DNA from: an uncultured Owenweeksia sp.
GTDB lineage: Bacteria; Bacteroidota; Bacteroidia; Flavobacteriales; Schleiferiaceae
Direction: 5' to 3'
Assembly (NCBI GenBank): GCA_937146805.1
Contig: CAKZRR010000039.1
Coordinates: 1-58,964, forward strand
Length of the DNA: 58,964 bases
Shown here: piece after piece, positions 15,700 to 37,384 of the stretch
How the letters are laid out: each line of letters begins with the position of its first letter
Position numbering within the stretch: the stretch's first letter is position 1
Program-made: the position numbers and the translations under genes
Notes under the pieces: generated by a model
What the model was told of the DNA's origin: nothing
The model's database searches: none
What the model saw: only the letters and a program-made list of their open reading frames with translations

Positions 15700-17091
15700 A
15701 TGGTTTTACACGATACTATTTGCGCCCTTTCTACCGCCCAAGGTATGGGTGCCATTGCGGTAATTCGCCTTTCGGGCGATGAAGCCTTTACTATTTTAGA
15801 TGCCTGTTTTAAACCTGTAAAAAAAGAAGCCTCTGCCGTTAAAGCAAAAGGCTACAGCTTGCTTTTTGGTAAAATTATGGATGGTAACACCGTAGTGGAC
15901 GAAGTATTGGTGAGCTTTTTTAAAAATCCACACTCCTACACCGGGCAAAATGTGGTAGAGGTAAGCTGCCATGGCTCTGTTTACATTCAAAAACAGCTGT
16001 TGCGCTTGTTTCAAAAACTAGGTGCCCGCATGGCCGAAGCCGGAGAGTTTACCCTACGCGCCTTTGCCAATGCCAAGCTCGACTTAACCCAAGCCGAAGC
16101 CGTAGCCGATTTAATTGCCTCCGAAAGTAAAGCGGCTCACCAAGTAGCCATGCAGCAAATGAGAGGTGGTTTTTCGTTAGAAATTAAAGAATTACGTGAG
16201 CAGCTTATCAAGTTTGCTTCGCTTATTGAGTTGGAACTTGATTTTGGCGAGGAGGACGTAGAGTTTGCCGATAGAGGTCAGTTGCACCAACTTTTGGCAC
16301 AAATAAAAAGCACTTTACAAACGCTGTTACAATCCTACCAAACAGGTAATGTTATAAAAAACGGATTACCGGTAGCCATTGTAGGCGCCCCCAATGTGGG
16401 TAAATCTACCCTGCTTAATACGCTGCTTAATGAAGATAAAGCCATTGTAACCGAAATAGCTGGCACCACCCGAGATGCCATTGAGGATGAGCTTATTTTG
16501 GGCGGCATACGCTTTCGCTTTATAGATACTGCGGGTATTAGAGCTACCGATGATGTGGTAGAGCAAATAGGAATTAAAAAAACCTATGCCAAAATTGCCG
16601 AAAGCAGCGTGGTATTTTACCTGTTTGATGCCCAAGCCAATGGCTTTGAAGAGCGCCTACCTTTAATTGAACAAGAACTGGAACAATTAAAAAGCAACAG
16701 CCCTCACAAAACTATTTTGGCTATTGCCAATAAAATGGATGTAGCCGATAAAAACCAGTTGCAAAACCTTACTTTTAACTACCTAGGTATTAGCGCCCAA
16801 AGTAAAACGGGCATGGAAGCGCTTAAAAAGGCACTGCTCAAAGAAGTAGATTTAGCCGGGCTCAATAGCAACCAAACTATTGTTACCAACGAGCGGCACT
16901 TTAATGCCCTGCAAACCAGCTTAACCGATATTGAACAAATTGAGCAAGGCTTGGCCAACCAAATTAGTGGCGACTTTTTAGCACAAGATATACGCGAGGC
17001 GCTGCGCCACTTGGGCGAAATTATAGGAACCGTAGATGTAGACCAGGATATTTTAGGGGCTATTTTTTCTAAGTTTTGTATTGGGAAGTAA
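15700..17091 (+). CDS. mnmE: tRNA modification GTPase MnmE
   Basis: 463 residues. With MnmG it installs the (carboxymethyl)aminomethyl group on U34 of certain tRNAs. N-terminal folate-binding domain (DTICALSTAQGMGAIAVIRLSG), helical domain, then an inserted Ras-like G domain with GAPNVGKST (G1), GTTRD (G2), DTAGIR (G3) and NKMD (G4). It ends in the conserved FCIGK, whose Cys is catalytic. The last codons (17076-17091) form the left attachment site of the integrated island, so the gene keeps its full C terminus. The promoter box sits 5 bases before the ATG. Confidence 0.96.
   Translation: MVLHDTICALSTAQGMGAIAVIRLSGDEAFTILDACFKPVKKEASAVKAKGYSLLFGKIMDGNTVVDEVLVSFFKNPHSYTGQNVVEVSCHGSVYIQKQLLRLFQKLGARMAEAGEFTLRAFANAKLDLTQAEAVADLIASESKAAHQVAMQQMRGGFSLEIKELREQLIKFASLIELELDFGEEDVEFADRGQLHQLLAQIKSTLQTLLQSYQTGNVIKNGLPVAIVGAPNVGKSTLLNTLLNEDKAIVTEIAGTTRDAIEDELILGGIRFRFIDTAGIRATDDVVEQIGIKKTYAKIAESSVVFYLFDAQANGFEERLPLIEQELEQLKSNSPHKTILAIANKMDVADKNQLQNLTFNYLGISAQSKTGMEALKKALLKEVDLAGLNSNQTIVTNERHFNALQTSLTDIEQIEQGLANQISGDFLAQDIREALRHLGEIIGTVDVDQDILGAIFSKFCIGK
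17076..17091 (+). repeat. Left attachment repeat (attL), within the mnmE 3' end
   Basis: TTGTATTGGGAAGTAA, encoding the final C-I-G-K and stop of mnmE. It matches TTGCATTGGGAAGTAA at 38921-38936 except at one position, which is a silent TGT/TGC difference if read in the mnmE frame. Confidence 0.8.
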
Positions 17092-17308: not shown

Positions 17309-17704
17309 ATGAGCAGTAATATTAAAATACCAAAGTTTTGTCAGTATTGTGGACAGGCATTTGTTGCCCAGACCACAACTACAAGGTATTGCTCTAAAAC
17401 TTGCAACAGCAGACACTACAAACAGAAGAAGCGAGAAGAGAAAGTTCAAGCTGCCTTACAGCAGGAAATGAATACACCTTCTCAAATGGAACAGATGCAA
17501 ACTTTGCAAACTCTTCCAATTAAAGTTGGCAATCACGTAAACCTAAGAGAGAAAGAATTTCTAAGTGTGCAAGAAGCTGCCGATTTAGTTGGTGCAAGTA
17601 GGTGGACAATACAGAGGATGATTAAAAGAGAACAAATCAAAGTTGGCAAATTAGGCAGACGAACAATTATCCCAAGAACAGAAATAGACAACCTCTTTAA
17701 ATAA
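17309..17704 (+). CDS. Zinc-finger plus helix-turn-helix protein, possible recombination directionality factor
   Basis: 131 residues. The N terminus CQYCGQAF...RYCSKTCNSRHYKQ is a treble-clef-like zinc finger (four Cys). A Q-rich linker follows, then an excisionase-type HTH from about residue 83 (LSVQEAADLVGASRWTIQRMIKREQI KVGKLGRRTIIPRTEIDNL, split here for length). It stops 7 bases before the integrase ATG, so the two form an operon. A role in excision or integrase control is inferred from fold and place. Confidence 0.75.
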   Translation: MSSNIKIPKFCQYCGQAFVAQTTTTRYCSKTCNSRHYKQKKREEKVQAALQQEMNTPSQMEQMQTLQTLPIKVGNHVNLREKEFLSVQEAADLVGASRWTIQRMIKREQIKVGKLGRRTIIPRTEIDNLFK

Positions 17705-17711: not shown

Positions 17712-18818
17712 ATGAAAGTAACACTTAGAAAACGAAAAAAGGGCAGTAAGGTAACTTTGTACCTGGACTACTACGACAAAGGAAAAAGAGAGTATGAACA
17801 CTTAGGATTATACCTCACACCTGACCCAGAGAAAGGAAGCCTTACCAAAGCTCAAAAAGACGAGAACAAAAAAATATTAGCACTTGCCGAAAGCATTCGT
17901 TCTAAGAGACACCTTGAAGTTCAGAATAACATATACGGCTTTAGAGACAAGGAAAAACTAAGAGGTAGTTTTCTAAATTACTTTAATAACCTAACGGAGA
18001 AAAAGAAAGCAAGTAACGGTAACTATGGTAATTGGGATGCAGTGCGAAAACACCTGAAAGCCTATTGTCCAAAAGATGTAACATTTGAGAGATTAGATGC
18101 AAAATGGGTACAAGGGTTTAGAGATTACTTGGACACGAAAGCTATAACCAAAACAGGAGATGGTATTTCACTCAATACAAAGTACTCTTACTTCAATAAA
18201 TTAAGGGCAGCTCTTAAACAAGCAGTCAAAGATGGAGTAATGAAATTCAACCCTTCTGAACAAGTAGAACCATTTCCACAAGACGAACCACAAAGAGAAT
18301 TTCTAACCTTAGACGAACTAAAGACACTATCAAAATCACACTGCAAGAATGATAATTTAAGACGGATGTTTTTATTCTCTTGCCTTACAGGCTTGAGATG
18401 GTCTGATATTGAAAAATTGAAATGGTCAGAGATACAACACTCAAAAGAGCTTGGTTACTACATACGTTTTAGACAAGCTAAAACTAATGGTATTGAAACA
18501 CAACCTATATCTGATGAAGCAAGAGCTTTGCTTGGTGATGAAGGAAAACCAGAAAAGAAAATCTTTACTGGCTTTAAATATGGGAATTGGAATAAGACAC
18601 TTTTAAAAGATTGGTTACTGGAAGCAGGTATTACTAAAAAAATAACCTTCCATTGTGCTCGTCATACTTACGCTACGCTTCAGTTGACGTTAGGCACAGA
18701 TATTTATACCGTCAGTAAATTACTTGGTCATAGGCATTTGAAAACAACAGAAATCTATGCAAAAGTGATAAACGAAAAGAAAGTAGAAGCAGCTCACAAA
18801 ATAAATATCGGACTATAA
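17712..18818 (+). CDS. Tyrosine recombinase (integrase) of the island
   Basis: 368 residues. Arm-binding N terminus (KVTLRKRKKGSKVTLYLDYYDKGK), SAM-like core-binding domain (about 90-200), catalytic domain from about 200. Catalytic residues are seen: Arg in TGLRWSDIEKL, His-x-x-Arg in FHCARHTYA, His in LLGHRHLKT and the nucleophile Tyr in TEIYAKV. It catalyses integration/excision by strand exchange; the mnmE 3' end is the inferred target because the gene lies beside attL and the direct repeats flank the island. Its stop overlaps the next gene's ATG. Confidence 0.93.
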   Translation: MKVTLRKRKKGSKVTLYLDYYDKGKREYEHLGLYLTPDPEKGSLTKAQKDENKKILALAESIRSKRHLEVQNNIYGFRDKEKLRGSFLNYFNNLTEKKKASNGNYGNWDAVRKHLKAYCPKDVTFERLDAKWVQGFRDYLDTKAITKTGDGISLNTKYSYFNKLRAALKQAVKDGVMKFNPSEQVEPFPQDEPQREFLTLDELKTLSKSHCKNDNLRRMFLFSCLTGLRWSDIEKLKWSEIQHSKELGYYIRFRQAKTNGIETQPISDEARALLGDEGKPEKKIFTGFKYGNWNKTLLKDWLLEAGITKKITFHCARHTYATLQLTLGTDIYTVSKLLGHRHLKTTEIYAKVINEKKVEAAHKINIGL

Positions 18819-19891
18819 TGGAATTAACTATATACAAGAACGTGCTATATGGCACATTAAAACCTTGGTTAATTCCAAGTGATGCTGAGAAGTTTTATCG
18901 TCAGAATATGACACCGAAATTTCAGAAACCAACTGAAAGTATTTTAGACTATTACCGAGCATTAAAAGACATACACTCTGATAAAAAGACTTTGTTCAAT
19001 GATGATGGTTTAGATATTTACAAGTCATTACCAAAATCAGACAAAGCCTTTTCTATTTTATCACCATTAGTAGATATGCTGTTACCTGTTCCAATTAATT
19101 CGGTTCAAAAATTTTATCATTATTTATTGCTAAATGAAACGACCAGATTGACAAATAGAGTTTACAATAGCTTCGTTAATTCTAATGATGAATTGCTTCA
19201 AAAAGACATTGTTCTAAATACAGTTAGATCTGCCAAAGATTTACTTCTAAAGATTGGTTCAGATAAAGAAGCATTTCCCACTGATGACCTAACAAAATTT
19301 GCATTAGAAACATTATCTATTTGTATAGTCCGGCTACTAAAAGAAACAGAATTATTATACCCTTCATTTCTAAATAGTATTCCCACAGACAAGACAGAGG
19401 CGTTTGCTGAACTTCTGCAAGCAGAAGTGCCAGCTTTTGATATAGATAAAACAACACCACTATTTACAACTATAAAAGGTATCCTTATTGGTGCTGATAA
19501 TTTCGAGTTACAGTCAGATGATAGGTTTGCTTTTGGCTACAACCAGAGGAACACAGATAGCCTAAAAACAGTGCTTTATAGTTTGCAGCGTGAAATTGAA
19601 TTGATTAATGAAACAGAAAATACTGTAGATGATTTATTAGCAATCCTTACAAGTAAGGATTTGCAATTAGGAGCAAAGCCTGTAAATCTTTTTTGTGAAA
19701 CAACACAATTCAGTTATATAGTTGCAAAATTGGAACTTCATTTTACCAATTTTAATCCTACTTCTATAGAGAAATCAAAGCTCTTTAAATCCAAGAAAGG
19801 CAACCATATAAAACGAAATAATCTATATAAAAACAAAAGCCAAAACTGTAAAAAACAGCAACAAATAGACACTATACTAAAGGGGCTGTAA
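18818..19891 (+). CDS. Unknown integrase-linked protein
   Basis: 357 residues; its ATG shares a base with the integrase stop (TAATG), so translation is probably coupled. Largely helical and acidic in the middle. The basic tail (EKSKLFKSKKGNHIKRNNLYKNK) follows a conserved-looking CETTQFSYIVAKL stretch that I associate with Bacteroidota element proteins (possibly DUF6617), without certainty. No catalytic motif is visible. A role in control of transfer, replication or regulation is possible but unproven. Confidence 0.6.
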   Translation: MELTIYKNVLYGTLKPWLIPSDAEKFYRQNMTPKFQKPTESILDYYRALKDIHSDKKTLFNDDGLDIYKSLPKSDKAFSILSPLVDMLLPVPINSVQKFYHYLLLNETTRLTNRVYNSFVNSNDELLQKDIVLNTVRSAKDLLLKIGSDKEAFPTDDLTKFALETLSICIVRLLKETELLYPSFLNSIPTDKTEAFAELLQAEVPAFDIDKTTPLFTTIKGILIGADNFELQSDDRFAFGYNQRNTDSLKTVLYSLQREIELINETENTVDDLLAILTSKDLQLGAKPVNLFCETTQFSYIVAKLELHFTNFNPTSIEKSKLFKSKKGNHIKRNNLYKNKSQNCKKQQQIDTILKGL

Positions 19892-20317: not shown

Positions 20318-20596
20318 ATGGGCTTCTACAATCCTTTAGACGAGAAATTGGAACAGATTGAAGACCGATTGGATGATATGCTTCTAATGCTTAAAGACAA
20401 GCAAAGAACCAATCCAGATCAAGTCTTTTTTGACAACCAAGAGTTTCTGCAAATTATGAATATCTCAAAGCGTACCGCCCAATATTGGCGAGACAGTGGG
20501 CAGGTTGGCTATTGCCAAATCGGCCACAAAATCTACTACCGCTTATCAGACATTCTCACTTTGCTCGATAAGAATTTCAAAACACCAGTTCAATAA
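20318..20596 (+). CDS. Second helix-turn-helix DNA-binding protein
   Basis: 92 residues, built like its neighbour: N-terminal coiled coil (DEKLEQIEDRLDDMLLMLKDK), HTH (FLQIMNISKRTAQYWRDSGQVGYCQIG) and wing (HKIYYRLSDILTLLDK). The tandem pair is a usual feature ahead of DUF3987 genes in Bacteroidota elements. Together they may set excision or replication of the island. Confidence 0.78.
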   Translation: MGFYNPLDEKLEQIEDRLDDMLLMLKDKQRTNPDQVFFDNQEFLQIMNISKRTAQYWRDSGQVGYCQIGHKIYYRLSDILTLLDKNFKTPVQ

Positions 20597-20621
20597 TGCA
20601 CGACCTTCAAAATTTATAATA

Positions 20622-22865
20622 ATGGCTTCTTCAACAATATTTAAAAAATTCAATCAACCTATAGAAAACAAAGCAATTCTACTCATAACCAAAGACATTG
20701 CAGAGGGCAAATACAAAGACCTTGTAGAGCCTATAAGAATGGCAATAGGAATGGGTAAACCTGAAAGAGTAGATAGGTTAAAAAAAGACTTGCCAGCTTT
20801 CACACCTTCTGGAACATTTGAAGGTGGTCGTAAAATGGAATACTTAAAAATGTATAGTGGTTTTGTTCACTTAGATTTTGATAAGCTAAGACCTGATGAA
20901 TTAGCTAAAGCCAAATCACAGGTACAAGAATTACCTACCACTTTTGCTTGTTTCACAAGCCCAAGCGGTAACGGCCTAAAAGTTTTTATAGAAGTAGATA
21001 GTTCTGTAGAACACCATAGTGCCGCATATAAGCAAGTACAGGAACATTACGAGCAATATCTGAGCATAGAGGCAGACCCAAAATGTAAAGACGTTACAAG
21101 GCTTTGCTTTGTGTCTCACGACACAGAAGCATACCGCAATATCCATAACGAAAAGTTCAAAGTTGAACTATCACAAAACAGCTTACTGGAACAAGTCCCA
21201 AAACCTTTGGTTTCGCCACCAGTTATTCAAGAATCGTACAATCCATTCTTAGATGAACAATTAGCTGAATGTGTACGATTTACCGAAAACAAATACCAGT
21301 ACTATGATGGTAACAGAAATAACTACATATATCAATTAGCGTGTAACTGTAATAGAAAAGGGATTGCCTATGACGATACATTGGATTTTATCAAGCAGAA
21401 CTATGACCTTAAAGAGTTTGAAATTAACGCTTCCGTAAAAAGTGCTTATAATCATAACGCTACTCAATTTGGACAGTACAAGAAGATAAAACCACCCATT
21501 CAAGAAAACACGGATGCAGAAACAGATTATCTTAAAAATACACCTACATATAGAGATGAATTATTTGAAGTTCTTCCAGAGATATTGAAGAATGGCTCGC
21601 AAGCATTTGATGATAAAAGAGAAAGAGACGTATTTCTAACAGGAGCTTTGGCTATCCTTAGCGGTTGCCTTCCTAATGTAAGTGGCGAATATGCAAGAGA
21701 AACAGTTTATCCTAATCTGTTTGCATTTGTAATAGCACCTGCCGCAAGCGGCAAGGGTGCATTAAAGTTTGCAAAGAACTTAGGAGATAAATACCAGGAT
21801 CACCTATTAGAATGTCATAAAGTTGCCAAAGAACAATATGAAGTAGAACTGGCAGAGCATAAAGCGGTACAAAGAGACAGAAAGAAAGGTGAACCTGTTA
21901 ATACAGAAGAACCAGAAAAACCACCATTTAAAGTAGCATTCATTCCTGCCAACAGTAGTTACGCTAAAATCCTACAACATATACAGCAGAATGAAGGTAC
22001 GGGCATAATTTGTGAAACAGAAGCCGACAGTATGGGTAATGTAATGAAACAAGAATGGGGAGGTTACTCTGATATGCTTCGCAAATCATTTCACCACGAG
22101 ACCATAAGTTTATCACGAAAGACCAATGATGAATACATTTCTATAAAAGAACCTAAAATATCTATTGCCTTGTCGGGCACACCCGGACAAGTAGGTAATT
22201 TGATTTCTTCAGCAGAAGATGGTTTATTTAGTCGCTTTATCTTTTACACTTTCAAAGTTGAAGAACAACTTTGGCGTGATGTGTCGCCTTTCGGCAACCC
22301 TATCAACTTAAATGAACATTTCACAAACTTGTCAAGCCAAGTCTTTTCAATGGTTCAGTTTTTTGAGCAATCCAATACCATTATAAAACTAACTCGTGAC
22401 CAATGGTTAACTATCAATGAAGTTGGACAAAAATGGTTGACAGAAATTACAATCTTCACTTCGGAGGAAGCAGGAAGTGTAGCCAAACGTTTAGGAGTAA
22501 TATTATATAGATTGGCAATGATATTTACAGCGTTAAGAAAGTTTGAAAATGGAGAGGTAACCCAAGAAGTGTTATGTACGGATGAAGATTTTGAGATAGC
22601 CCTAAGCATTGCAAATACATTCATAGAGCATAGTGTTATTATGTTTAATAATCTTCCAAAACAAGAAAAGGTAATGCCATTTAAAGGTAGTAACAAGCAA
22701 GCATTCTTTACAGGTTTACCTATTAAGTTCAAGCGAGAGGAAGCGGTACAGATTGGTATATCTCACAATATCAAAGAAAGAACGGTTGGTTCACTACTCA
22801 AAAAACTACTGCAACAAGGCATTTTAACCCAACCAGAGTACGGCTTTTATCAGAAAGTTAGTTGA
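20622..22865 (+). CDS. VirE-N/DUF3987 primase-helicase-type protein
   Basis: 747 residues from ATG 20622; a longer frame from 20496 would overlap the previous gene and is rejected. N-terminal ~200 residues match the BT4734/VirE-N type (MEYLKMYSGFVHLDFDKL, TFACFTSPSGNGLKVFIEVD), a primase-like fold. The middle and C-terminal part is DUF3987, with a P-loop-like APAASGKGALKFAKNLG near residue 370 and an acidic CETEADSM further on. Such proteins are taken to help replicate or mobilise the excised element. Reads with the two HTH genes. Confidence 0.8.
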   Translation: MASSTIFKKFNQPIENKAILLITKDIAEGKYKDLVEPIRMAIGMGKPERVDRLKKDLPAFTPSGTFEGGRKMEYLKMYSGFVHLDFDKLRPDELAKAKSQVQELPTTFACFTSPSGNGLKVFIEVDSSVEHHSAAYKQVQEHYEQYLSIEADPKCKDVTRLCFVSHDTEAYRNIHNEKFKVELSQNSLLEQVPKPLVSPPVIQESYNPFLDEQLAECVRFTENKYQYYDGNRNNYIYQLACNCNRKGIAYDDTLDFIKQNYDLKEFEINASVKSAYNHNATQFGQYKKIKPPIQENTDAETDYLKNTPTYRDELFEVLPEILKNGSQAFDDKRERDVFLTGALAILSGCLPNVSGEYARETVYPNLFAFVIAPAASGKGALKFAKNLGDKYQDHLLECHKVAKEQYEVELAEHKAVQRDRKKGEPVNTEEPEKPPFKVAFIPANSSYAKILQHIQQNEGTGIICETEADSMGNVMKQEWGGYSDMLRKSFHHETISLSRKTNDEYISIKEPKISIALSGTPGQVGNLISSAEDGLFSRFIFYTFKVEEQLWRDVSPFGNPINLNEHFTNLSSQVFSMVQFFEQSNTIIKLTRDQWLTINEVGQKWLTEITIFTSEEAGSVAKRLGVILYRLAMIFTALRKFENGEVTQEVLCTDEDFEIALSIANTFIEHSVIMFNNLPKQEKVMPFKGSNKQAFFTGLPIKFKREEAVQIGISHNIKERTVGSLLKKLLQQGILTQPEYGFYQKVS

Positions 22866-22915: not shown

Positions 22916-22948
22916 TACATTTGTCATTTAATGTCAAGTGAACATTTG
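22916..22948 (+). promoter_or_regulatory. Promoter region of the XRE-Argonaute unit
   Basis: TACATTTG (22916-22923) matches TAnnTTTG. A second near-match, AACATTTG (22941-22948), ends 5 bases before the XRE ATG with TTTG 17 bases upstream of it. The region follows the end of the DUF3987 gene, so the Argonaute unit probably has its own promoter. Confidence 0.4.
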
Positions 22949-22952
22949 AACA

Positions 22953-23237
22953 ATGAATAATTTTGGAGACCTTATTAGAGCCAAACGAGAAGAAAAAGAA
23001 ATGCTTCTACGACACCTGGCAGCAGAGTTAGATATTGACACAGCTCAGCTTAGCAAGATGGAAAGAGGGGAACGAACAGCAAGACGTGAACACGTAGTTG
23101 AACTTACTAAAATACTTAGTCTTGATAAAGAAGAAACATTGTCAATCTGGTTAGCTGACCAAATATGTTTGCTATTGGCAAAAGAAAAACAAGCTCTGAG
23201 AGCCTTAAAACTCGCAGAGACAACATTGAGTAAATAA
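22953..23237 (+). CDS. XRE-family regulator, controller-protein type
   Basis: 94 residues. HTH_3 fold from the start: FGDLIRAKREEKEMLLRHLAAELDIDTAQLSKMERGERTAR (about residues 4-45), then LTKILSLDKEETLSIWLADQI and a helical tail. In Bacteroidota, close relatives stand in front of restriction-modification genes and delay their expression on entering a new cell. Here the following gene is an Argonaute, 8 bases downstream, so the regulator probably controls it. Regulation of a defence gene is an inference from position. Confidence 0.85.
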   Translation: MNNFGDLIRAKREEKEMLLRHLAAELDIDTAQLSKMERGERTARREHVVELTKILSLDKEETLSIWLADQICLLLAKEKQALRALKLAETTLSK

Positions 23238-23245
23238 TTCAAAAC

Positions 23246-25294
23246 GTGCAGAAACTTAATATCAATATAATTCCATTTAGCCACCCCTTTGCAAGCAAAG
23301 AGTTTGGCTTTTATGCTGAGAAAAAAGAAGGCACATATCCTGTCCATAGGTCAGAGTTACCACAGCCTCTTTGGGCAAAGTATGAAGAAGAATTTCAAGA
23401 TATTAAGTACCTCTATTCTGATTTTGTTTCTGTTGATGATACAGATTATAAGGCAACAGTAGATTTTAAAGAGAGTTCAAGGTTTGCAAAACACTTTTAT
23501 ACCACCAGTATTTTATCATATTTTAAGGACAAGGCTGATGCAATAAACAAGAACTTTGTAGGAGATATACAATTATGGTTTAAAGATGAAAGCCTTTCGG
23601 CTTCCACTTTTACAGCATACGAGAAATACACTTTGAAAATAGAATTTTCAAGACTTACTTCAAGCCCTGCATTATTAATTACCTATGATGGCGTGTCTAA
23701 AGTTTCTACAAAAAGTATTGCTGAAATAGATATACCTACAGAGAATTTTAAAACCATAATATTCAGAAACAGGATTACTAAGTTCGATAGATTAGATGAA
23801 GAAGCAAAGCAGAACCTTACAGAGGCATTCCCATTACTTTCATTCTCATTAAAAGACATTCTCAAAATACCACAAAACAGACCAAAGAGAGTAAATAAAT
23901 ACCTACCATATCACAAGAAGATAAATGAGTTTTATAATCAGTATTTGAACAATAAAGCATTCAGAGAATTGCTTCCTTTAGATAGTAATGGGTTTTATAA
24001 TATTCCAGATAAGGACGTATTCAGAATAAACTATAAATCCAATAACTTAAAATTTTACAACGGTACAGAAATAGATCCTCAAAAGGGAATGAAAATGGGG
24101 CCATATAAAACAGCCCAAAATCCAAATAATATTAGTTTCTTTTTTGTGTATCATAAACCAGATAGAGCAAAAGCTGTTGCACAGCTTTACTCTTATTTTA
24201 CAAATGGTTATCAGAAAAACGGCTACACAGTTTTCAAACCCCTAAAGGAATATATTAAGCAACCATTTCATATAGCCAAGGATGATAGTATCGCATTTGA
24301 AAATCCTGAGACAGCATTAAAGGAAATTAAGCAACATTTAGTTGACTTCAATCCCAAGCCGAATACTCAATATGTAGCTATTTATGTAAGCCCTATAAGT
24401 AAGAACGAGAGAGACCCGGAAAGGATAATGCTTTATTACAAGGTCAAAGAAGAATTACTTAAACATAATATCACTTCTCAAGTAATATACAATCAGAATA
24501 TATTCAATGATTACTTCAATTACTACTTGCCTAATATCGCTATCGCTCTATTGGCAAAAATTGGTGGTATTCCTTGGCGTTTAGACAGAGCACCCACACA
24601 AGAGCTTATTGTTGGTGTAGGTGCATTTAATTCTATCACTACTAAAAGTCGATATGTAGGCAGTGCATTTTGTTTTAATAATGAAGGTGAGTTTAAAGGC
24701 TTTGACTGTTTCAGAAATAATGAAATGGATTTATTGGTAGGTGCTATAAGAAAGCAAATACTAACATATTTAATAACCAATGGCGAGAATGCCAAAAGAC
24801 TAATCATACATTATTACAAGGTATTTAGTAAAGACGAATTAGACCCAGTTCAGCGTATGTTAGGAAAATTAGGCTTGGACATTCCTGTAATAGTAGTAAC
24901 AATAAACAAGACAGAGAGTAAAGACTATGTAGCTTTTGATACTAATTCAGATGCTTTAATGCCATTAAGTGGGACTATTATTGACATATCAAGAAATAAG
25001 CATTTATTATTCAATAATACTCGCTATTCAGAAAATGGATATGCACCTAAAGACAATCCGTTTCCTGTAAAACTACAACTCTATTGCACAGTAGAAGGTT
25101 ACTTTGACAATCCCGCAGTTAAGAAAGAAATAATAGACCAGGTATATCAATTCAGCCGTATGTATTGGAAATCAGTAAAACAACAAAACCTACCTGTTAC
25201 TATTAAATACCCAGAAATGGTAGCTCAAATATTCCCGTTTTTTGAAGCAGATAAATTAGAAGATTTTGCTAAAAATAATTTGTGGTTTTTATGA
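23246..25294 (+). CDS. Prokaryotic Argonaute (long type) with probably inactive PIWI
   Basis: 682 residues. The N-terminal ~360 residues hold the N and linker (and possibly PAZ-like) regions. MID spans about 370-445: QYVAIYVSPI, then the guide 5'-end pocket pattern Y-K (398-399), Q (412) and K (438) in SQVIYNQ / LAKIGGIPWRL, a strong Argonaute hallmark. PIWI spans about 450-682. The first catalytic Asp (IGID-type) is Gly459 in LIVGVGAF, and the second (H-x-D) is Tyr524 in IIHYYKVF, so slicing is unlikely. The C terminus LWFL fits the family. It follows an XRE gene by 8 bases and overlaps a Fur gene (ATGA). Guide-dependent target binding is inferred; no fused or directly adjacent nuclease is seen. 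Confidence 0.9.
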   Translation: MQKLNINIIPFSHPFASKEFGFYAEKKEGTYPVHRSELPQPLWAKYEEEFQDIKYLYSDFVSVDDTDYKATVDFKESSRFAKHFYTTSILSYFKDKADAINKNFVGDIQLWFKDESLSASTFTAYEKYTLKIEFSRLTSSPALLITYDGVSKVSTKSIAEIDIPTENFKTIIFRNRITKFDRLDEEAKQNLTEAFPLLSFSLKDILKIPQNRPKRVNKYLPYHKKINEFYNQYLNNKAFRELLPLDSNGFYNIPDKDVFRINYKSNNLKFYNGTEIDPQKGMKMGPYKTAQNPNNISFFFVYHKPDRAKAVAQLYSYFTNGYQKNGYTVFKPLKEYIKQPFHIAKDDSIAFENPETALKEIKQHLVDFNPKPNTQYVAIYVSPISKNERDPERIMLYYKVKEELLKHNITSQVIYNQNIFNDYFNYYLPNIAIALLAKIGGIPWRLDRAPTQELIVGVGAFNSITTKSRYVGSAFCFNNEGEFKGFDCFRNNEMDLLVGAIRKQILTYLITNGENAKRLIIHYYKVFSKDELDPVQRMLGKLGLDIPVIVVTINKTESKDYVAFDTNSDALMPLSGTIIDISRNKHLLFNNTRYSENGYAPKDNPFPVKLQLYCTVEGYFDNPAVKKEIIDQVYQFSRMYWKSVKQQNLPVTIKYPEMVAQIFPFFEADKLEDFAKNNLWFL

Positions 25295-25704
25295 GTGATA
25301 AAATAGAAAACGAACTAACCCAACGCCACATAAAGCCTACCGCTATGCGGATATTGGTCTTGCAATATTTTATGGAGCAAACTCGTGCAGTCTCGCTTCA
25401 AGACATAGAGTTATCGTTTGTAAATGCCGATAAAAGCACCCTATACCGAACTCTAAAAACATTTGAAAAAAACAAATTAGTACATACCATAGATGATGGC
25501 ACAAAGCAACTCAAATACGCCTTATGTCTATCTACCTGTCAGTGTGAAGCCATAGATCAACACTATCATTTCCACTGTCTTAATTGTGAAAACACTTACT
25601 GCCTTACTTCTCTCAATATTCCAACCATTGAATTACCGCAAGACTTTACAATGAAACAAGCCAATCTGGTAATCAAAGGGAGGTGTGCAAATTGTAAAAC
25701 ATAA
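25291..25704 (+). CDS. Fur-family metal-dependent regulator
   Basis: 138 residues or so from the ATG at 25291, which overlaps the Argonaute stop as ATGA. Winged helix (KPTAMRILVLQYFMEQT...SLQDIEL...DKSTLYRTLKTFEKNKLVH), then the metal-binding dimer domain with CQCEAIDQHYHFHCLNCENTYCL: His/Cys ligands and two C-x-x-C pairs (HCLNCE and GRCANCK) for structural zinc. This is the Zur/PerR/Fur group; the metal sensed is not clear. Downstream lies a metal-efflux operon, so it may belong to that module, yet it is translationally coupled to the Argonaute. Confidence 0.87.
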   Translation: MSDKIENELTQRHIKPTAMRILVLQYFMEQTRAVSLQDIELSFVNADKSTLYRTLKTFEKNKLVHTIDDGTKQLKYALCLSTCQCEAIDQHYHFHCLNCENTYCLTSLNIPTIELPQDFTMKQANLVIKGRCANCKT

Positions 25705-25747: not shown

Positions 25748-26071
25748 GTGAAATTACTAACAGGCATAATGGCAATCTATTTCACGGCACTTTCTATAAT
25801 GCCGTGTACTGATGGTATTTCGCAAATAGAAACCCACACCTCTTCTGAGGTTTCAGTATCAGATAATCACCACGACCACTCGCATAATGAAGAAGATGGC
25901 TGTACGCCTTTTTGTGTTTGTGCTTGTTGTGGTACAATAGTGGTGATGCCTTCTATTTTTCAAATTGGTATGAGAAGAATTGATTTAACTTCTACCTACC
26001 AGTTTTCATATACTTTTGATTATTCCTTCGATTACAATGAAGGTATTTGGCACCCACCTGCCATAAGTTAA
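25748..26071 (+). CDS. Small His/Cys-rich exported protein (DUF6660-like) of the metal operon
   Basis: 107 residues, GTG start. Signal peptide (MKLLTGIMAIYFTALSIMP), then HHDHSHNEEDGCTPFCVCACCG, a cluster of His and Cys residues well suited to binding soft or transition metals. Small proteins of this type precede CzcA/CusA genes in Bacteroidota (DUF6660). Probably a periplasmic metal binder serving the efflux pump encoded 67 bases downstream. Confidence 0.7.
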   Translation: MKLLTGIMAIYFTALSIMPCTDGISQIETHTSSEVSVSDNHHDHSHNEEDGCTPFCVCACCGTIVVMPSIFQIGMRRIDLTSTYQFSYTFDYSFDYNEGIWHPPAIS

Positions 26072-26138: not shown

Positions 26139-29100
26139 ATGTTTGATAAAATAATTGCTTATTCCGTGCGGAATAAGTTTGTCATAGGGCTGATGGTGGT
26201 CGCCCTGGCAATTTGGGGTATATATTCCCTTCGCCAAATCCCCATAGATGCAGTACCCGATATTACCAATAATCAGGTGCAGATAATTACGATAACACCA
26301 ACCTTGGCTACTCAAGAAGTGGAGCAATTCATAACTACACCAATTGAGTTGTCTTTACAAACCCTACAACGAGTAGAAGAAATTCGGTCAATCTCACGTT
26401 TTGGACTATCGGTAATTACCGTAGTCTTTGACGAACAACACGATATTTATTTAGCTCGGCAGTTGGTTGATGAACGATTACAAGAAGCCCAAGATGCTAT
26501 ACCTGACGGTTTAGGTACACCAGAGATGGCACCTATTTCAACTGGATTGGGTGAGATATACCAATATGTAGTAAGACCCACAGAAGGCTATGAAGTTAAA
26601 TATAGTCCTGCCGAATTAAGGTCTATACAAGATTGGATTGTAAAACGACAGCTATCAGGTATAGAAGGGGTGGCAGAAGTCAATTCTATGGGTGGCTATC
26701 TCAAACAATATGAAGTAGCCGTAAATCCAAACCTACTTAAATCAATGGGGATAAGCATTACAGATGTATTTAATGCTTTGGAAAATAGCAATGAAAATAC
26801 AGGTGGAGCATACATAGAGAAAAATCCAAACACCTATTATATCCGAACGGAAGGAATAGTAAAGTCATTAGATGATATAGGCAACATAGTAGTCAATGAA
26901 ATAGGCAGCACCCCAATATTGATAAAAGACATTGCCAGCGTTCAGTATGGAGAAGCACCTCGATATGGAGCATTGGTCAGAAATGGCGAAGAAGTAGTTG
27001 GTGGGAAAGTAATGATGTTCAAAGGTGCAAACTCTGCAACGACTACAGAATTGATTAAAAAAAGAGTTGTCCAAATCCAAAAATCACTACCCGAAGGTGT
27101 GGTAATCGAGCCTTATTTAGTAAGAGATAAATTGGTTTCAACGGCAATAGGAACAGTAAAGAAAAACCTTATAGAAGGAGGCTTAATTGTCATTTTCATT
27201 TTGGTATTAATGTTAGGCAATTGGCGAGCAGGGCTTGTTGTTGCTTCTGTCATTCCTTTAGCAATGTTGTTTGCCATAGCAATGATGAATGTGCTGGGTA
27301 TTTCGGCCAATTTAATGAGTTTGGGTGCTATTGATTTTGGACTAATTGTAGATGGAGCGGTTATAATAGTAGAATCCATTGTACATAGGTTACAAGTCAA
27401 ATTTGCAGGTCAAAAATTATCAGCTACTCAAATGGATGATGAAGTAATACATTCTTCTCAGAAAATAAGAAGTTCCGCAGCCTTTGGTGAAATTATCATT
27501 CTAATGGTGTATATCCCCATATTGGCATTGGTAGGTATAGAAGGCAAAATGTTTAAGCCAATGGCTGAAACGGTTATGTTAGCTATTGCAGGAGCATTAA
27601 TTCTCTCACTTACTTATGTGCCAATGATGACAGCACTTTTTCTGAGTAAAAATGTATCGAACAAAAGAACTATTGCAGATAAAATTATTTCAGCTTGTCA
27701 GCGAGTATATGCACCCGTGTTAAATTATGCACTCAAATTTAAAGCAGCATTTGCAATAGCGGCCATTGCACTTTTCGCGGTAAGTCTATTTGCTTTCAGC
27801 AAAATGGGTGGAGAGTTCATTCCTACTTTAGAGGAAGGGGATTTAGCAATGCAGCATATTCTACCACCGGGTAGCTCATTGAGCCAAAGTGTAGAAACTG
27901 CCAAAATGGTTCAAAACAAATTACTTAATGATTTTCCAGAGATAGAAGACATTGTGGTAAATATAGGTTCGGCAGAAATTCCCACAGATCCTATGCCTGT
28001 AGAAATTGGAGATTATGCTCTTATTATGAAACCAAAATCAGAATGGACTTCTGCCACTAACAGAAAAGATATGTTTGAACAACTGGAAGAATCACTACAC
28101 GACATACCAGGCATAGGTTATGAATTTTCACAACCTATTCAACTTCGTTTTAATGAATTAATGACTGGTGCTAAAGCTGATATTGCTATTAAATTATATG
28201 GAGAAGATTTAAACTTGATTTATCAAAAAGCAAAAGAAGCTGAAAAAGTTATTAATGGAATTGATGGAATTGGAACTGTAAATGTGGAACAGACTATCGG
28301 AATGCCTCAAATAATCATATCCTACAATTATGCTAAAATGGCTCAATATGGCTTGCATATCAAAGAAGTAAACCAAGCCGTAAGAAGTGCTTTTGCAGGA
28401 GAAAAAGCAGGGGTGGTTTACGAAGGAGAAAAACGATTTGATTTAGTTATAAGGTTAGATAAATCGAATAGAAAAGAACTTGCTGACGTAGAGAACTTAT
28501 TTCTCACACTTAGTAATGGTTCACAAATTCCACTATCGGCTGTAGCCAATGTAGAACTCAAAGATGCACCAATGCAGATTTCTCGTGACAATACCAATAG
28601 AAGAATTGTCATAGGTGTAAATGTGGGTGACACAGATGTTGAATCCTTAGTAGAGAAAATACAAACTGAATTAGATGTAAAAGTAAAATTGCCTTCGGGT
28701 TATTATTTTACCTATGGTGGTCAATTTGAAAATCTCAAAGCAGCCAATGCAAGATTGGCTATTGCTGTTCCATTAGCTTTGGCACTCATTTTTATATTGT
28801 TGTTTTTTACCTTCAAATCTGTTGCACAAGCAGCACTTATTTTCACAGCTATACCCTTGTCGGCTATTGGTGGAATTTGGGCATTGCAATTAAGAGGTAT
28901 GCCTTTTAGTATTTCGGCAGGTATTGGATTTATTGCACTTTTTGGTGTAGCAGTACTTAATGGAATTGTCTTGATAGGTTATTTCAATCAACTTAAAAAA
29001 GAAGGTGTTGCAGATTTAAGAGAAAGAATACTAAAAGGAACTAAAGTAAGATTACGACCAGTATTGATGACTGCCTCAGTGGCCTCACTTGGGTTTTTAC

Positions 29101-30449
29101 CTATGGCATTATCCACTTCTGGAGGTGCAGAAGTACAAAGACCTTTAGCGACTGTGGTTATCGGTGGCTTACTTACCGCTACTTTTCTGACTTTGCTGAT
29201 TTTACCCATTCTATACAGTTGGTTGGAGCAATGGAAAGAGAGAAAATCAAAAGGCAATAGCAAAGCAGGAGCTACATTAGTTGTGCTTGTTTTGAGTATG
29301 GTAGGTTTCACGGCTAATGCACAAAATGTTGTTTCGCTCGACTCAGCCATTGCCATTGCCATAAAGAATAATCCTTCCATTTCTGCAAGTTCATTAGAAG
29401 TGCAACAGGCAGAAAAACTATCCAATCTTAAATACAACTTAGGTACTACAGACATTTCTTATCAAGGAGACGGCTTGGCAGATAATCAATTTGGGCAGCA
29501 AGTAAATCAAATTGGTTTTATACAAAACATTCCAAATCCTTCTGCCATAAATGCTCAGAAAAAGCTGAATGAACAGAAATTAATAGGAAGCCAAATCAAT
29601 AAGAAAATTACTGTTGCCGAGCTTACGCTTCAAGTGAAACAACAATATTTTTCTATCCAATATAAGAGTGAAATGCTCTCGCTATATGAACGGTTTATTA
29701 CTTTGTATTCCGATTATTTAAAAAAGGCAGAAATAAGAGTTTCAGTAGGAGCAGCCAATGGTTTAGAGAAATTAAATATTCAATCCAAGTTGCAAGAATA
29801 TGAAATGTTAAAAGCTCAAACTGAATTAATCGTTCAGAATTTGGAAAAACAGTTTCAGCTCCTACTCAATAGTCCAAATCCAGTCAGTGTAAAGGACTCT
29901 TTATCACAATTTTCTTTTACAATTGTAGATAGTACTAATGGACTTTGGGTCCAAGATGCCCAACTACAATCTAAGATAGAAGCAGCAGAAATAGGAGTAT
30001 TAAAATCTACTACTAAGCCAGACTTTAATGCTGGCTATGCAGCCCAAAGATTTAATGAAGGCGGTTGGCTCAGTGCAGTACAAGTAGGCGTTTCTATTCC
30101 TCTATTTAATGGGAATACTAAGAAGAAAATTAAGGCACAAGAATTAAAAGTGCAAGCCTCAGATATGCAATCACAAGCAGTTCTATTAAATTATCAAAAG
30201 CAACTTTTGGAAAGCAGAAATGCAATAGTCGTATATCAAAAAGGAGTAGATTTTTATATCAATCAAAAAAACACTTTGAATCCCGAATTGAACCGAATAG
30301 CTAATCTGAATTACCAGGCAGGTGAGCTTACTTACTTAGAATTACTCAATGTACTCAATCTGGTATCACAGTCAGAAAGCGGCTACCTCACTCAACTCTA
30401 TGAGCACAACAAGGCAGTGGCTTTATATCAATTTCTTTCAACTAAATAA
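26139..30449 (+). CDS. CzcA/CusA-type heavy-metal RND pump fused to a TolC-type outer-membrane factor
   Basis: 1436 residues. Residues 1 to ~1035 are a heavy-metal-efflux RND pump with 12 membrane segments: start MFDKIIAYSVRNKFVIGLMV, proton-relay motif DFGLIVDGAVIIVE in TM4, and the GGEFIPTLEEGD periplasmic start. After the last pump helix comes a hydrophobic stretch (about 1043-1060, LVVLVLSMVGFTANAQ) that looks like a retained signal peptide, followed by ~375 residues of TolC-like coiled-coil/barrel sequence. The fusion may need cleavage after ANAQ to put the TolC part in the outer membrane. Exports divalent or monovalent metals (Zn/Cd/Co or Cu/Ag). Reads with the adaptor gene 11 bases on. 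Confidence 0.9.
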   Translation: MFDKIIAYSVRNKFVIGLMVVALAIWGIYSLRQIPIDAVPDITNNQVQIITITPTLATQEVEQFITTPIELSLQTLQRVEEIRSISRFGLSVITVVFDEQHDIYLARQLVDERLQEAQDAIPDGLGTPEMAPISTGLGEIYQYVVRPTEGYEVKYSPAELRSIQDWIVKRQLSGIEGVAEVNSMGGYLKQYEVAVNPNLLKSMGISITDVFNALENSNENTGGAYIEKNPNTYYIRTEGIVKSLDDIGNIVVNEIGSTPILIKDIASVQYGEAPRYGALVRNGEEVVGGKVMMFKGANSATTTELIKKRVVQIQKSLPEGVVIEPYLVRDKLVSTAIGTVKKNLIEGGLIVIFILVLMLGNWRAGLVVASVIPLAMLFAIAMMNVLGISANLMSLGAIDFGLIVDGAVIIVESIVHRLQVKFAGQKLSATQMDDEVIHSSQKIRSSAAFGEIIILMVYIPILALVGIEGKMFKPMAETVMLAIAGALILSLTYVPMMTALFLSKNVSNKRTIADKIISACQRVYAPVLNYALKFKAAFAIAAIALFAVSLFAFSKMGGEFIPTLEEGDLAMQHILPPGSSLSQSVETAKMVQNKLLNDFPEIEDIVVNIGSAEIPTDPMPVEIGDYALIMKPKSEWTSATNRKDMFEQLEESLHDIPGIGYEFSQPIQLRFNELMTGAKADIAIKLYGEDLNLIYQKAKEAEKVINGIDGIGTVNVEQTIGMPQIIISYNYAKMAQYGLHIKEVNQAVRSAFAGEKAGVVYEGEKRFDLVIRLDKSNRKELADVENLFLTLSNGSQIPLSAVANVELKDAPMQISRDNTNRRIVIGVNVGDTDVESLVEKIQTELDVKVKLPSGYYFTYGGQFENLKAANARLAIAVPLALALIFILLFFTFKSVAQAALIFTAIPLSAIGGIWALQLRGMPFSISAGIGFIALFGVAVLNGIVLIGYFNQLKKEGVADLRERILKGTKVRLRPVLMTASVASLGFLPMALSTSGGAEVQRPLATVVIGGLLTATFLTLLILPILYSWLEQWKERKSKGNSKAGATLVVLVLSMVGFTANAQNVVSLDSAIAIAIKNNPSISASSLEVQQAEKLSNLKYNLGTTDISYQGDGLADNQFGQQVNQIGFIQNIPNPSAINAQKKLNEQKLIGSQINKKITVAELTLQVKQQYFSIQYKSEMLSLYERFITLYSDYLKKAEIRVSVGAANGLEKLNIQSKLQEYEMLKAQTELIVQNLEKQFQLLLNSPNPVSVKDSLSQFSFTIVDSTNGLWVQDAQLQSKIEAAEIGVLKSTTKPDFNAGYAAQRFNEGGWLSAVQVGVSIPLFNGNTKKKIKAQELKVQASDMQSQAVLLNYQKQLLESRNAIVVYQKGVDFYINQKNTLNPELNRIANLNYQAGELTYLELLNVLNLVSQSESGYLTQLYEHNKAVALYQFLSTK

Positions 30450-30460
30450 AAAATAAAATA

Positions 30461-31690
30461 ATGAAACATATATCATATATCACAATCCTATTATTAGTGG
30501 CAATGGTCACTTTATTTTCGGCTTGTAAACACGAACACAAAGAAGGAGATGGCCATAATCACGGCTCAGAAGAAACCCATAGTGATGATGATGGACACAA
30601 CCACGGAGAAGAAGAACACGAAGAAGGTGGTTTACATTTGACCCAATCACAAATCAAAACTGTAGGCTTAGAGTTTGGAGATTTTAGCAATGTCAAAGTA
30701 AATGATTTTGTAAAAGCCACAGGTTCATTGGGTGTACCACCCAATGGCCTTACTTCGGTTTCGCCAAAGGCAGGAGGGATTATTAATTCAAACAAAAAGT
30801 TTGTAGAGGGAGATTATATAAAGAAAGGTGCTTTAATTGCTTACATTGAAAACCCTGAATTTATAACAAAGCAGCAAGAGTATTTACAAACCAAATCTAC
30901 TTTGGTCTTTACTAAGGCAGAAGTAGCACGACAGCAATCTTTGGTAAATGCCAATGCAGGAGTAGAAAAAAACCTTCAGCAACTACAAGCACAATTAGAT
31001 GCCCAACAAGTTCAATTACAAGGCTTGGCTAAATACCTCAATTATTTAGGCATTAGCACTACCAACTTATCAGGAAATAACATTACAGATCGTATCGGAA
31101 TTTATGCCCCAAACTCTGGCTACATATCCAACATACAGATGCACAACGGTATGTATGCACAGCCTACCAGTAGCCTCTTAGAAATAATAGACAATAGTCA
31201 TTTGCACTTAGAATTGGATGTATTTGAAAAGGATGTAGCTCAAATCAAAAAGGGACAGCGAATTACTTACAGTATTCCAGCCTTGGGTACAGATAATTAT
31301 GAAGGTGAAGTGAGTGTCATTGGCAAGGAGTTTAATGCTGCAAATAAAACAGTTCGAGTTCACGGTCATTTAGAAAATGCCAAACCCCAGTTTATAAAAG
31401 ACTTATTTATCAATGCAAAAATATGGCTCAATGATAACTCTGTAACGGCACTACCAGAGAAAGCAATTATAAGAGATGAAGGAAGCTCTTTTGTGTATGC
31501 TGCCATACCAAATACTGAAAGTGAAGAAGTAGAATTTACCAAACTAATGGTAAAACCTGGCACTACAGATAATGGATACACAGCGGTTCAGCTGATAGAT
31601 GAGTTGCCTGATGGAATGGAAATAGTAACAAAGGGAGCGTACTACGTTTATGCCCAATCCAAAGCGGGAGAATTAGAACACGAACATTAA
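30461..31690 (+). CDS. Metal-efflux RND periplasmic adaptor (CzcB/CusB-type) lipoprotein
   Basis: 409 residues. Lipoprotein signal with lipobox F-S-A-C (residue ~22) followed by a His/Asp/Glu-rich stretch (HKEGDGHNHGSEE, then GHNHGEEEHEEGG) likely to bind metal ions. The membrane-fusion core then shows the lipoyl halves (GGIINSNKKFVEGDYIKKG; IYAPNSGYISNIQMHNGMY), a helical hairpin (residues ~145-195) and a beta-barrel domain. It joins the inner-membrane pump to the outer-membrane channel across the periplasm. Short 5'-gap to the pump gene shows an operon. Confidence 0.9.
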   Translation: MKHISYITILLLVAMVTLFSACKHEHKEGDGHNHGSEETHSDDDGHNHGEEEHEEGGLHLTQSQIKTVGLEFGDFSNVKVNDFVKATGSLGVPPNGLTSVSPKAGGIINSNKKFVEGDYIKKGALIAYIENPEFITKQQEYLQTKSTLVFTKAEVARQQSLVNANAGVEKNLQQLQAQLDAQQVQLQGLAKYLNYLGISTTNLSGNNITDRIGIYAPNSGYISNIQMHNGMYAQPTSSLLEIIDNSHLHLELDVFEKDVAQIKKGQRITYSIPALGTDNYEGEVSVIGKEFNAANKTVRVHGHLENAKPQFIKDLFINAKIWLNDNSVTALPEKAIIRDEGSSFVYAAIPNTESEEVEFTKLMVKPGTTDNGYTAVQLIDELPDGMEIVTKGAYYVYAQSKAGELEHEH

Positions 31691-31700: not shown

Positions 31701-32285
31701 ATGGCACTACTAATATTTTTATTGATTTATTTCTTCCTTGTTTTCTTTCTGAGGTCATTTTTGCTTTGGAAAAAGACGGGAATAAACCCTTTAACTTTCA
31801 AGAATGGGGATGATGCTCACGGTTTTAATGGAAAGGTATTTTCCTCAATCTCAATACTTGAGTTAATTATAATTTCAATTTATGCTTTTAGCAATAATTG
31901 GAGAGAGTATCTATTGCCTTTGTGGTATCTCGAAAATCCTATTCTACATAAAATTGGTTGGGTAATGCTTTTCCTCTCATTACTGATTGTATGGGTTGCT
32001 CAATCTCAAATGGCTAATTCTTGGCGTATTGGCATTGATGAAGAAAACAAGACAGAATTGGTTACAAACGGTCTTTTTAAGTATTCCAGAAACCCAATTT
32101 TCCTTGGCATTATGGTAGCAAATATCGGATTATTCTTAATTCTTCCTAATGCTTTTACAATGCTAATAGTAGCACTTTCAACGATAAGCATAAACACCCA
32201 AATTCGATTAGAAGAAGAACATTTAGAAAAAACACATTCCGACATATACATTCAATATAAAAATAAAGTCAGAAGATGGATATAG
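31701..32285 (+). CDS. Isoprenylcysteine methyltransferase-like (ICMT/PEMT family) membrane protein
   Basis: 194 residues, four or five membrane helices. The C-terminal signature of the ICMT/PEMT family is clear: NGLFKYSRNPIFLGIMVANIG, followed by IRLEEEHLEKTHSDIYIQYKNKVRRW with the conserved Glu-Glu and Tyr. Substrate in bacteria unknown; such genes recur inside Bacteroidota metal-resistance operons. It overlaps the following P-type ATPase gene by 10 bases and so is translated with it. Confidence 0.8.
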   Translation: MALLIFLLIYFFLVFFLRSFLLWKKTGINPLTFKNGDDAHGFNGKVFSSISILELIIISIYAFSNNWREYLLPLWYLENPILHKIGWVMLFLSLLIVWVAQSQMANSWRIGIDEENKTELVTNGLFKYSRNPIFLGIMVANIGLFLILPNAFTMLIVALSTISINTQIRLEEEHLEKTHSDIYIQYKNKVRRWI

Positions 32286-34309: not shown

Positions 34310-34438
34310 TTTTCTAAACATTCTTTGGTAGCAGTTCCTTTTATAGTTATGCCATAATTAGTAATGGTCCTATCCTCATTATTAATAACAGATAAGTAAT
34401 GGGTCTTCACAAAGAAAGTATTGTGGCTTCTGTAATCT

Positions 34439-34479
34439 ATTTAAGCATTTGCTTAAATACTTATTTATCTTTACCTTTG
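34439..34479 (+). promoter_or_regulatory. ArsR-type operator and promoter of the arsR-mer unit
   Basis: ATTTAAGCATTTGCTTAAAT at 34439-34458 is a perfect palindrome (two 9-bp arms, 2-base centre). TTTG at its middle (34448-34451) serves as -33, and TACCTTTG (34472-34479) lies 20 bases further on as -7. The -7 box ends 5 bases before the arsR ATG. The repressor encoded next would cover the -33 element until metal is bound. Confidence 0.75.
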
Positions 34480-34483
34480 CCTT

Positions 34484-36748: not shown

Positions 36749-36836
36749 GTTCAAGGGCTTTCTTTTTTTTCCGTTTTTTTCTTTGTCAAAAAATTTTTGT
36801 GGTGAAGCGAAGCGGAACAAACCAAAAGTCCGTTTT

Positions 36837-37265: not shown

Positions 37266-37355
37266 ATAGGTGTTTAAATACACTATAAACCGTATTTAAT
37301 TGCACCATAAAGGCACACCCTTAGAAAATGGATGCAAAATATACAGACAAAGAAA

Positions 37356-37384
37356 AAGCCCAACTGCCAAAGGCAGAAGGGCTT
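37356..37384 (-). terminator. Terminator hairpin downstream of the 268-aa gene
   Basis: AAGCCC-AA-CTGCC / GGCAG-AA-GGGCTT around an AAA loop. Read on the minus strand it is followed by TTTTTCTTTG, suitable for intrinsic termination of the gene ending at 37414. It may also stop transcripts from the left. Confidence 0.7.

Follow-up and report, generated by a model that had tools for sequence, protein, structure and literature searches.

The window analysed here, the whole 58,964-nucleotide stretch of contig CAKZRR010000039.1 from an uncultured Owenweeksia sp. (GenBank assembly GCA_937146805.1), contains an XRE-family regulator followed by a prokaryotic Argonaute (pAgo), a pair that on balance probably forms a two-gene, guide-directed, non-cutting defence cassette under restriction–modification (R-M)-style control, carried on an integrative element at mnmE. 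It looks like a known but uncharacterised kind of defence cassette. A first-pass annotation had placed the XRE gene, the Argonaute gene and a Fur-family gene here and read the three as one module; all three genes are present at those positions (sequence, list of open reading frames (ORFs), Pfam), and their identities are confirmed by Pfam, with PADLOC for the Argonaute. The membership of Fur does not hold. The central features are as follows.

22916..22923, + strand: predicted TAnnTTTG-type -7 promoter element (sequence)
22919..22939, no strand: palindromic putative XRE operator TWGNCAN5TGNCAAGT
22953..23237, + strand: XRE regulator, R-M controller type
23246..25294, + strand: long-B-like, probably catalytically dead, apparently PAZ-less prokaryotic Argonaute
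25291..25704, + strand: Fur-family regulator, first gene of a metal operon

The Argonaute protein

The Argonaute comprises 682 amino acids (aa), with a GTG start 8 bases past the end of the XRE gene, and matches Pfam Piwi (1.1e-13) and, over residues 2-682, the PADLOC pAgo model PDLC02385 (6.2e-265), which names no class; NCBIfam gave no above-cut-off match for the XRE protein, the Argonaute or Fur. The closest solved sequence is AfAgo (1e-15, residues 395-663), and Y397, K401, Q412 and K438 align with the residues that we take to form its MID pocket. The Y-K-Q-K pocket pointed out in the first-pass annotation is therefore real, and both it and the C-terminal L682 are invariant in all 34 aligned sequences, the window's included. 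The alignment draws on 34 of 42 Argonaute loci (loci are labelled L, genomes G), with L011, L021, L029 and L089 excluded as partial or short, L016 and L030 as broken, and L023 and L024 as near-duplicates of L022. Purifying selection on the protein is strong, with nonsynonymous divergence (dN) of 0.035 and synonymous divergence (dS) of 1.26 relative to L002, whose Argonaute is 94% identical.

Alignment to CbAgo (6qzk), of which the catalytic residues are presumed, puts G459 at the first catalytic aspartate site and Y524/K525, where the alignment has a gap, at the second one. Position 459 is glycine in 34/34 sequences, 524 is tyrosine or phenylalanine, and 525 is lysine in 34/34; none of the 34 Argonautes has aspartate at 459, 523, 524 or 525, and the fourth catalytic site falls on E657 (glutamate in 32/34). 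Judged on both aspartate sites and the fourth site, the catalytic DEDX tetrad is probably absent, and target cutting is unexpected because aspartate is missing at both expected catalytic sites. The first-pass annotation made no mention of these missing aspartates.

An AlphaFold2 model of the Argonaute (mean pLDDT 86.0, pTM 0.81) aligns along the whole chain with RsAgo 6d9k_F (Z 28.9, 608 residues, root-mean-square deviation (rmsd) 4.5 Å) and, for the MID-PIWI residues 252-682, with AfAgo 8ok9_A (Z 27.6, 389 residues, rmsd 3.3 Å); eukaryotic PIWI-clade Argonautes reach Z up to 29.2 against the same model, so that Z cannot choose between Argonaute families. Only ~40 residues lie between L1 and L2 in the model, the DSSP string contains no PAZ barrel, and a Pfam search of the protein returned no PAZ match at E 1; the Argonaute thus seems PAZ-less. 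AfAgo is described as long-B, and a PAZ-less state is described for some long-B pAgos, in the sections of PMC10954474 drawn on here. The 682-aa chain aligns with full-length Argonautes from residue 1 or 2 to 682, an arrangement distinct from the short pAgo architecture of MID-PIWI alone with an APAZ partner, and the window's genome encodes no second Piwi protein at E 0.01.

Several Argonaute genes among the relatives are damaged or oddly placed. L089 carries a shortened form (8585-9949; 454 aa, MID-PIWI only, matching from residue 274) directly upstream of a metal operon, which may be a truncated remnant, and the reading frames of L016 (8013-10139) and L030 (7992-10037) are broken into pieces. 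L023, labelled as a Desulfovibrio metagenome-assembled genome, is nearly identical in gene layout and Argonaute to the Bacteroidales loci L022 and L024 and is probably a misbinned contig.

The XRE regulator and its putative operator

Controller (C) proteins of R-M systems are small XRE proteins, encoded first in the defence operon and accompanied by a conserved palindrome at their own promoter. By the company that its sequence relatives keep, the XRE protein of the window (94 aa; Pfam HTH_3 3.2e-6, above cut-off) is of this controller type, since in relatives it leads R-M operons and its own promoter carries a conserved operator. Among 30 XRE loci fetched, 26 have a clear XRE ORF, six of them in Argonaute islands and 20 outside. 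In 10 of these 20, author-chosen, the longest ORF at most 600 bases downstream matched a methyltransferase or R-M model in nine cases and a short-pAgo-associated nuclease in one (L162), which bears out the earlier description of the regulator as one that guards restriction systems; among the other 10, some downstream genes appear by eye to be non-R-M (Fic-like in L169, RhuM-like in L165). An XRE paralogue in the window's own genome heads, by eye, a type III-like R-M operon.

The 19-bp operator TWGNCAN5TGNCAAGT lies, as an exact match, upstream of 13 of the 18 XRE genes in Argonaute islands (the exceptions being L004, L013, L016, L019 and L032), and one other exact copy (L134) was found in 1,047,878 bases of partly redundant loci. 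It also precedes 8/20 XRE genes outside Argonaute islands, which form the fairer test of the operator because the pattern came from the Argonaute-island set. In the window the palindrome overlaps the TAnnTTTG element, a consensus that we assume to identify a -7 promoter element.

Between the window and L002 the XRE gene has a dN of 0.228, well above that of its neighbours, the primase and the Argonaute; by eye, the helix–turn–helix (HTH) half is conserved (43/48) and the C-terminal half is not. In L162 (G217), the same XRE type with its operator heads a gene matching the short-pAgo-associated Aga REase models, and for this reason a single type of controller seems to be shared by Argonaute systems of two kinds.

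Gene neighbourhood in relatives

Upstream of the XRE gene stands a primase/helicase-like protein with BT4734-like_N and DUF3987 domains, the former presumably being the domain that bore the older name VirE_N. Primase and Argonaute share a contig in 29 of the 42 Argonaute loci, 11 further loci are short contigs (L003, L005, L006, L007, L011, L015, L017, L018, L020, L021 and L029), and two (L031 and L089) are without primase, having at least 7.9 kb of upstream DNA that contains no primase relative. The count of 29 islands keeps the near-identical L022-L025 as four and includes the broken Argonautes of L016 and L030; L007, outside it, has the XRE gene, at which its contig ends. An XRE gene lies between primase and Argonaute in 18/29 islands (the window, L002, L004, L009, L010, L013, L014, L016, L019, L026, L028, L032, L080-L082 and L086-L088), compared with 0/9 Ago-free primase islands in which an XRE of this family follows the primase (Fisher p 0.0013), a comparison that is loose because the nine are more distant relatives. 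The Ago-free set consisted of L093, L094 and L119-L126, from which L094 was dropped as it ends 55 bases past the primase; several of its members carry, by eye, R-M, Dnd-like or GmrSD-like genes in the post-primase slot, and others do not.

Downstream of the Argonaute, the genes of relatives are unrelated to one another: GmrSD, reverse transcriptases (UG6, UG19, AbiP2), PLD, PHP-AAA, UvrD, a ResIII helicase, NERD and metal operons have all been found there, and many of them are defence genes by type. BLAST clustering of 36 loci recovered, within the fetched flanks, no gene beyond Argonaute, primase and XRE in more than eight loci, and a fixed downstream effector gene was rejected on the same flanks, given that the following genes are mutually unrelated. 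The reverse-transcriptase defence genes, of the UG6, UG19 and AbiP2 types, adjoin the Argonaute or lie one gene beyond it in L010, L012 and L026.

Proposed mode of action

Together, the gene content and synteny, the conservation of the operator, the missing catalytic residues, the predicted fold, the likely ends of the island and a divergence break between Argonaute and Fur suggest the following scheme. An integrative element inserted at the mnmE 3′ end would carry the XRE and Argonaute genes in its cargo slot. By binding the palindrome over its own promoter, the XRE protein would set the level and timing of the XRE–Argonaute transcript, in the manner of restriction controllers. The MID pocket may load a 5′-phosphorylated guide, probably RNA, with which the Argonaute would pair with complementary invader DNA and leave it uncut; once bound, it could keep plasmids or phages from being replicated or transcribed, or mark them for a nuclease acting in trans. 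That nuclease might be supplied by neighbouring R-M or other defence enzymes in sister islands, and in the window possibly by host R-M or RecBCD-type enzymes.

A number of observations weigh against this scheme. The window's operon contains no nuclease or toxin through which a dead Argonaute might protect. The XRE protein is not Argonaute-specific, having matches in 47/395 genomes of the order (E 1e-10) as against 11/395 for the Argonaute, and in 11/29 islands the stretch from primase to Argonaute holds no XRE of this family, which makes the pair frequent and not universal. The operator pattern was derived from the Argonaute-island promoters themselves, and 12/20 XRE genes of the independent set have no exact copy. 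Island genes have also been reshuffled, as correlations of Argonaute distances are only moderate with those of primase (rho 0.35; 5/2000 permutations) and XRE (rho 0.31; 22/2000), and show no clear correlation with those of the integrase (rho 0.30; 187/2000).

Alternative readings

Restriction genes are common in the same slot, and the Argonaute could be an R-M companion, the guide-directed arm for the variable restriction enzymes of an XRE-led operon, with the window having lost or not yet gained its R-M genes. Such genes, identified by hidden Markov model (HMM) or by clustering with an HMM-identified protein, lie between primase and Argonaute in 19/29 islands (L004, L008, L010, L012-L014, L016, L019, L022-L026, L028, L032, L082 and L084-L086) and are of type I, type III, AlwI and Eco57I-like kinds; in 16 of the 34 loci for which the distance was measured, the preceding large ORF ends 1-24 bases before the Argonaute start, and the XRE protein is itself of R-M controller type. 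However, 10/29 islands, the window among them, are without R-M genes (the ORFs of these 10 having been scanned in part only), defence genes cluster anyway, and no single protein interface is evident because the R-M types are mutually unrelated. A companion of this sort is possible and rather unlikely. Metal genes follow the Argonaute in 8/10 islands without R-M genes (in L009 the sole such gene is DUF6660-like and lies where the contig ends) and, in the DNA at hand, in 2/19 R-M islands (L028 and L085).

A wider form of the idea is speculative, and carries a low probability: Bacteroidota may possess a type of XRE-controlled defence operon whose nuclease-dead Argonaute is constant and acts as guide-directed partner to restriction enzymes that can be exchanged; the window would then be its minimal form, relying on restriction enzymes that other loci of the cell supply. 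The window's own genome has the paralogous XRE heading a type III-like operon. If the idea were true, innate restriction would gain guide-based recognition of sequences from the dead Argonaute.

The Argonaute might instead serve the element as a part of its stable backbone, silencing rival elements or controlling copy number, which is consistent with the low dN common to Argonaute, integrase and primase between the window and L002 (0.035, 0.032 and 0.053) and with the primase lying upstream on the same contig in 29/42 Argonaute loci. Against it, 395 genomes of the order yielded this primase type in 30, the Argonaute in 11 and both in 10, so that 20/30 primase genomes do without an Argonaute and the protein is dispensable for the element; such a role appears improbable. 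The two-gene defence cassette remains the preferred account of the XRE–Argonaute pair.

Fur and the metal operon

The Fur-family gene (137 aa; PF01475 34.0 bits against a cut-off of 23.1) begins at an ATG at 25291 that overlaps the Argonaute stop as ATGA, as had been remarked at first pass; the overlap is not Fur-specific, the Argonaute of L081 being joined in the same way to a different gene. Judged from gene order and sequence comparison, Fur opens a metal-efflux operon and stands outside the Argonaute module, joined to the Argonaute by position and possible read-through only.

Divergence between the window and L002 changes abruptly at this junction: from the low values of integrase, primase and Argonaute, dN rises to 0.184 for Fur, 0.380 for the DUF6660 gene and 0.207 for the RND gene, and the break falls exactly at the Argonaute/Fur border. 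The Fur and RND proteins of L002 are closer to those of the Ago-free locus L090 (85% and 87%) than to those of the window (76% and 73%). Fur genes sharing 44% identity or more number 10, and every one occurs with metal-transport genes; three abut the Argonaute, four sit 2.6-6.1 kb from it within the metal operon, and three (L090-L092) have no Argonaute nearby. Since 7/10 were reached via the Argonaute or the window itself, the Argonaute-linked share leans upward; a family search by Fur alone gave four non-window Fur genes at the same identity, of which one adjoins an Argonaute and three have none near.

A search of other genomes for the same trio had been proposed at first pass; Fur is the next same-strand gene after the Argonaute in only 3/42 loci. 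The tightly spaced XRE–Argonaute–Fur order of these three, namely the window, L002 (94% Argonaute identity) and L080, does speak against separating Fur, recurring in L080 despite an Argonaute identity of 38%; a single three-gene system with Fur as metal sensor and modulator of Argonaute defence is nevertheless very improbable, and the trio was rejected as a unit, given its rarity, the dN break and the occurrence of Fur with metal genes in Ago-free loci. The first-pass annotation had itself allowed that the trio would be an accident of island assembly if Fur were always tied to the metal operon and the Argonaute always alone: the first part agrees with what was found, and the second does not, as XRE and other defence genes stand beside the Argonaute in relatives.

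The integrative island at mnmE

The two-gene cassette and the metal operon share an island of ~21.8 kb that begins at the 3′ end of mnmE and holds, between its att-like repeats, an excisionase-like HTH protein, integrase, DUF6617, two HTH proteins, the VirE_N/DUF3987 protein, XRE, Argonaute, the metal operon and right-end genes. Neighbour lists of ORFs were made mechanically, and some products were named by eye.

15700-17091: mnmE (Pfam MnmE_helical/TrmE_N)
17074..17091, + strand: attL-like repeat, 3′ end of mnmE (TTTTGTATTGGGAAGTAA)
17309..17704, + strand: excisionase-like HTH protein, island backbone (HTH_17; 'excise' TIGR01764)
17712..18818, + strand: tyrosine integrase (Phage_integrase 1.3e-18)
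18818..19891, + strand: DUF6617 backbone protein (PF20322 1e-25)
20013-20315 and 20318-20596, + strand: two small HTH_17 proteins
20592..22865, + strand: BT4734-like_N + DUF3987 primase/helicase-like protein (PF08800 1.4e-34, PF13148 3.9e-60); the ORF opens at 20496 and the real start is uncertain
25748..26071, + strand: DUF6660 protein, metal operon (PF20365 1.8e-9)
26139..31690, + strand: RND heavy-metal pump and CusB-type adaptor (HlyD_D23 for 30461-31690; pump by eye)
31701..35457, + strand: remaining metal operon (PEMT/ICMT-like, P-type ATPase, ArsR regulator, MerT-HMA)
36783-37265 (+ strand), 37414-38220 (- strand) and 38293-38805 (+ strand): island right-end genes, the last thermonuclease-like by eye
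38919..38936, + strand: attR-like repeat (TATTGCATTGGGAAGTAA), with two mismatches relative to attL

A copy of the last 18 bases of mnmE (17074-17091) stands at 38919-38936 with two mismatches, and the pair taken alone is moderate evidence because 0.16 matches at three or fewer mismatches are expected by chance; no exact repeat of at least 14 bases links 16901-17400 to any other part of the window. Similar att-like sites lie to the right of the Argonaute in six other islands (L004, L014, L018, L084, L135 and L136; one mismatch was allowed in one search, and these carry no chance estimate). The junction of mnmE with the integrase module recurs in L002, L080, L081, L083 (there as a fragment at the edge of the locus) and L087, and in two congeneric genomes (G026 and G028) mnmE is present without this integrase after it in the DNA fetched. 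The integrase, the mnmE-end repeat and the sites in six islands support the mobile island suggested at first pass.

Within the island, the excisionase-like HTH protein is 99% identical to its L002 counterpart, and the right-end genes (36783..38805) have homologues in L004, L006, L030 and others. The right-end gene at 36783 was considered as an Argonaute partner and rejected, as it is also present in the Ago-free loci L092 and L124; carriage by plasmids or phages was rejected on one distant match (26% identity, 39% of the query) in 72,556 plasmid records and none in 50,697 phage records. The RND protein (26139-30449; 1436 aa) is apparently, by eye from its translation, a pump fused to an outer-membrane factor.

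Comparison with known systems

Among the papers listed in a search of open-licence PMC text, none, going by its entry, describes an XRE–Argonaute or XRE–Argonaute–Fur arrangement. By gene context, tree position aside, the window matches the long-B pAgos associated with a VirE_N protein (og_54) in the portion of Song 2023 (PMC10620215) considered here, where that protein is usually the 2nd-8th gene upstream and its function is left to future study; the window likewise has a VirE_N protein, here the 2nd gene upstream, ahead of a long pAgo that is probably inactive. Beyond this, the present analysis contributes an XRE operator, the island at mnmE, the association with R-M genes and the exclusion of Fur. 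The BPAN, BPAS and BPAM long-B systems, as treated in the same portion of PMC10620215, also have a dead long pAgo that is expected to find invader DNA by means of a guide, and they pair it with a nuclease, Sir2 or membrane effector downstream in the same operon, whereas the next gene in the window is Fur (PF01475). The AfAgo heterodimer and RsAgo, as far as the sections of PMC10954474 describe them, resemble the window's Argonaute in its apparently PAZ-less, long-B-like arrangement, the YKQK pocket and the fold; AfAgo is split and RsAgo retains a reduced PAZ, whereas the window's Argonaute is a single chain and apparently PAZ-less.

Like the C proteins of R-M systems, the XRE protein is small, encoded first and accompanied by a promoter palindrome, but it precedes an Argonaute: XRE and Argonaute are the sole genes between primase and Fur, and the operon holds no methyltransferase or restriction enzyme. 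Islands of the SGI1 type, in the accounts drawn on, integrate at the same site, the 3′ end of trmE/mnmE; the window has another integrase, a primase and metal and defence cargo.

The window fits the descriptions of Song 2023 and of Ryazansky 2018 (PMC6299218) alike, the latter, in the part relevant here, reporting lambda-repressor-like proteins in pAgo operons and RND pumps, their role unexplained, in 14% of long-B operons. The island view offers an answer to these pumps for this group, as it suggests that RND pumps and Fur are a separate cargo of the same integrative element, the simplest account of the RND link. The og_54 puzzle likewise gains a testable form: an Argonaute without a fixed effector behind a regulator and promoter of the restriction-controller kind, repeatedly found beside unrelated R-M systems.

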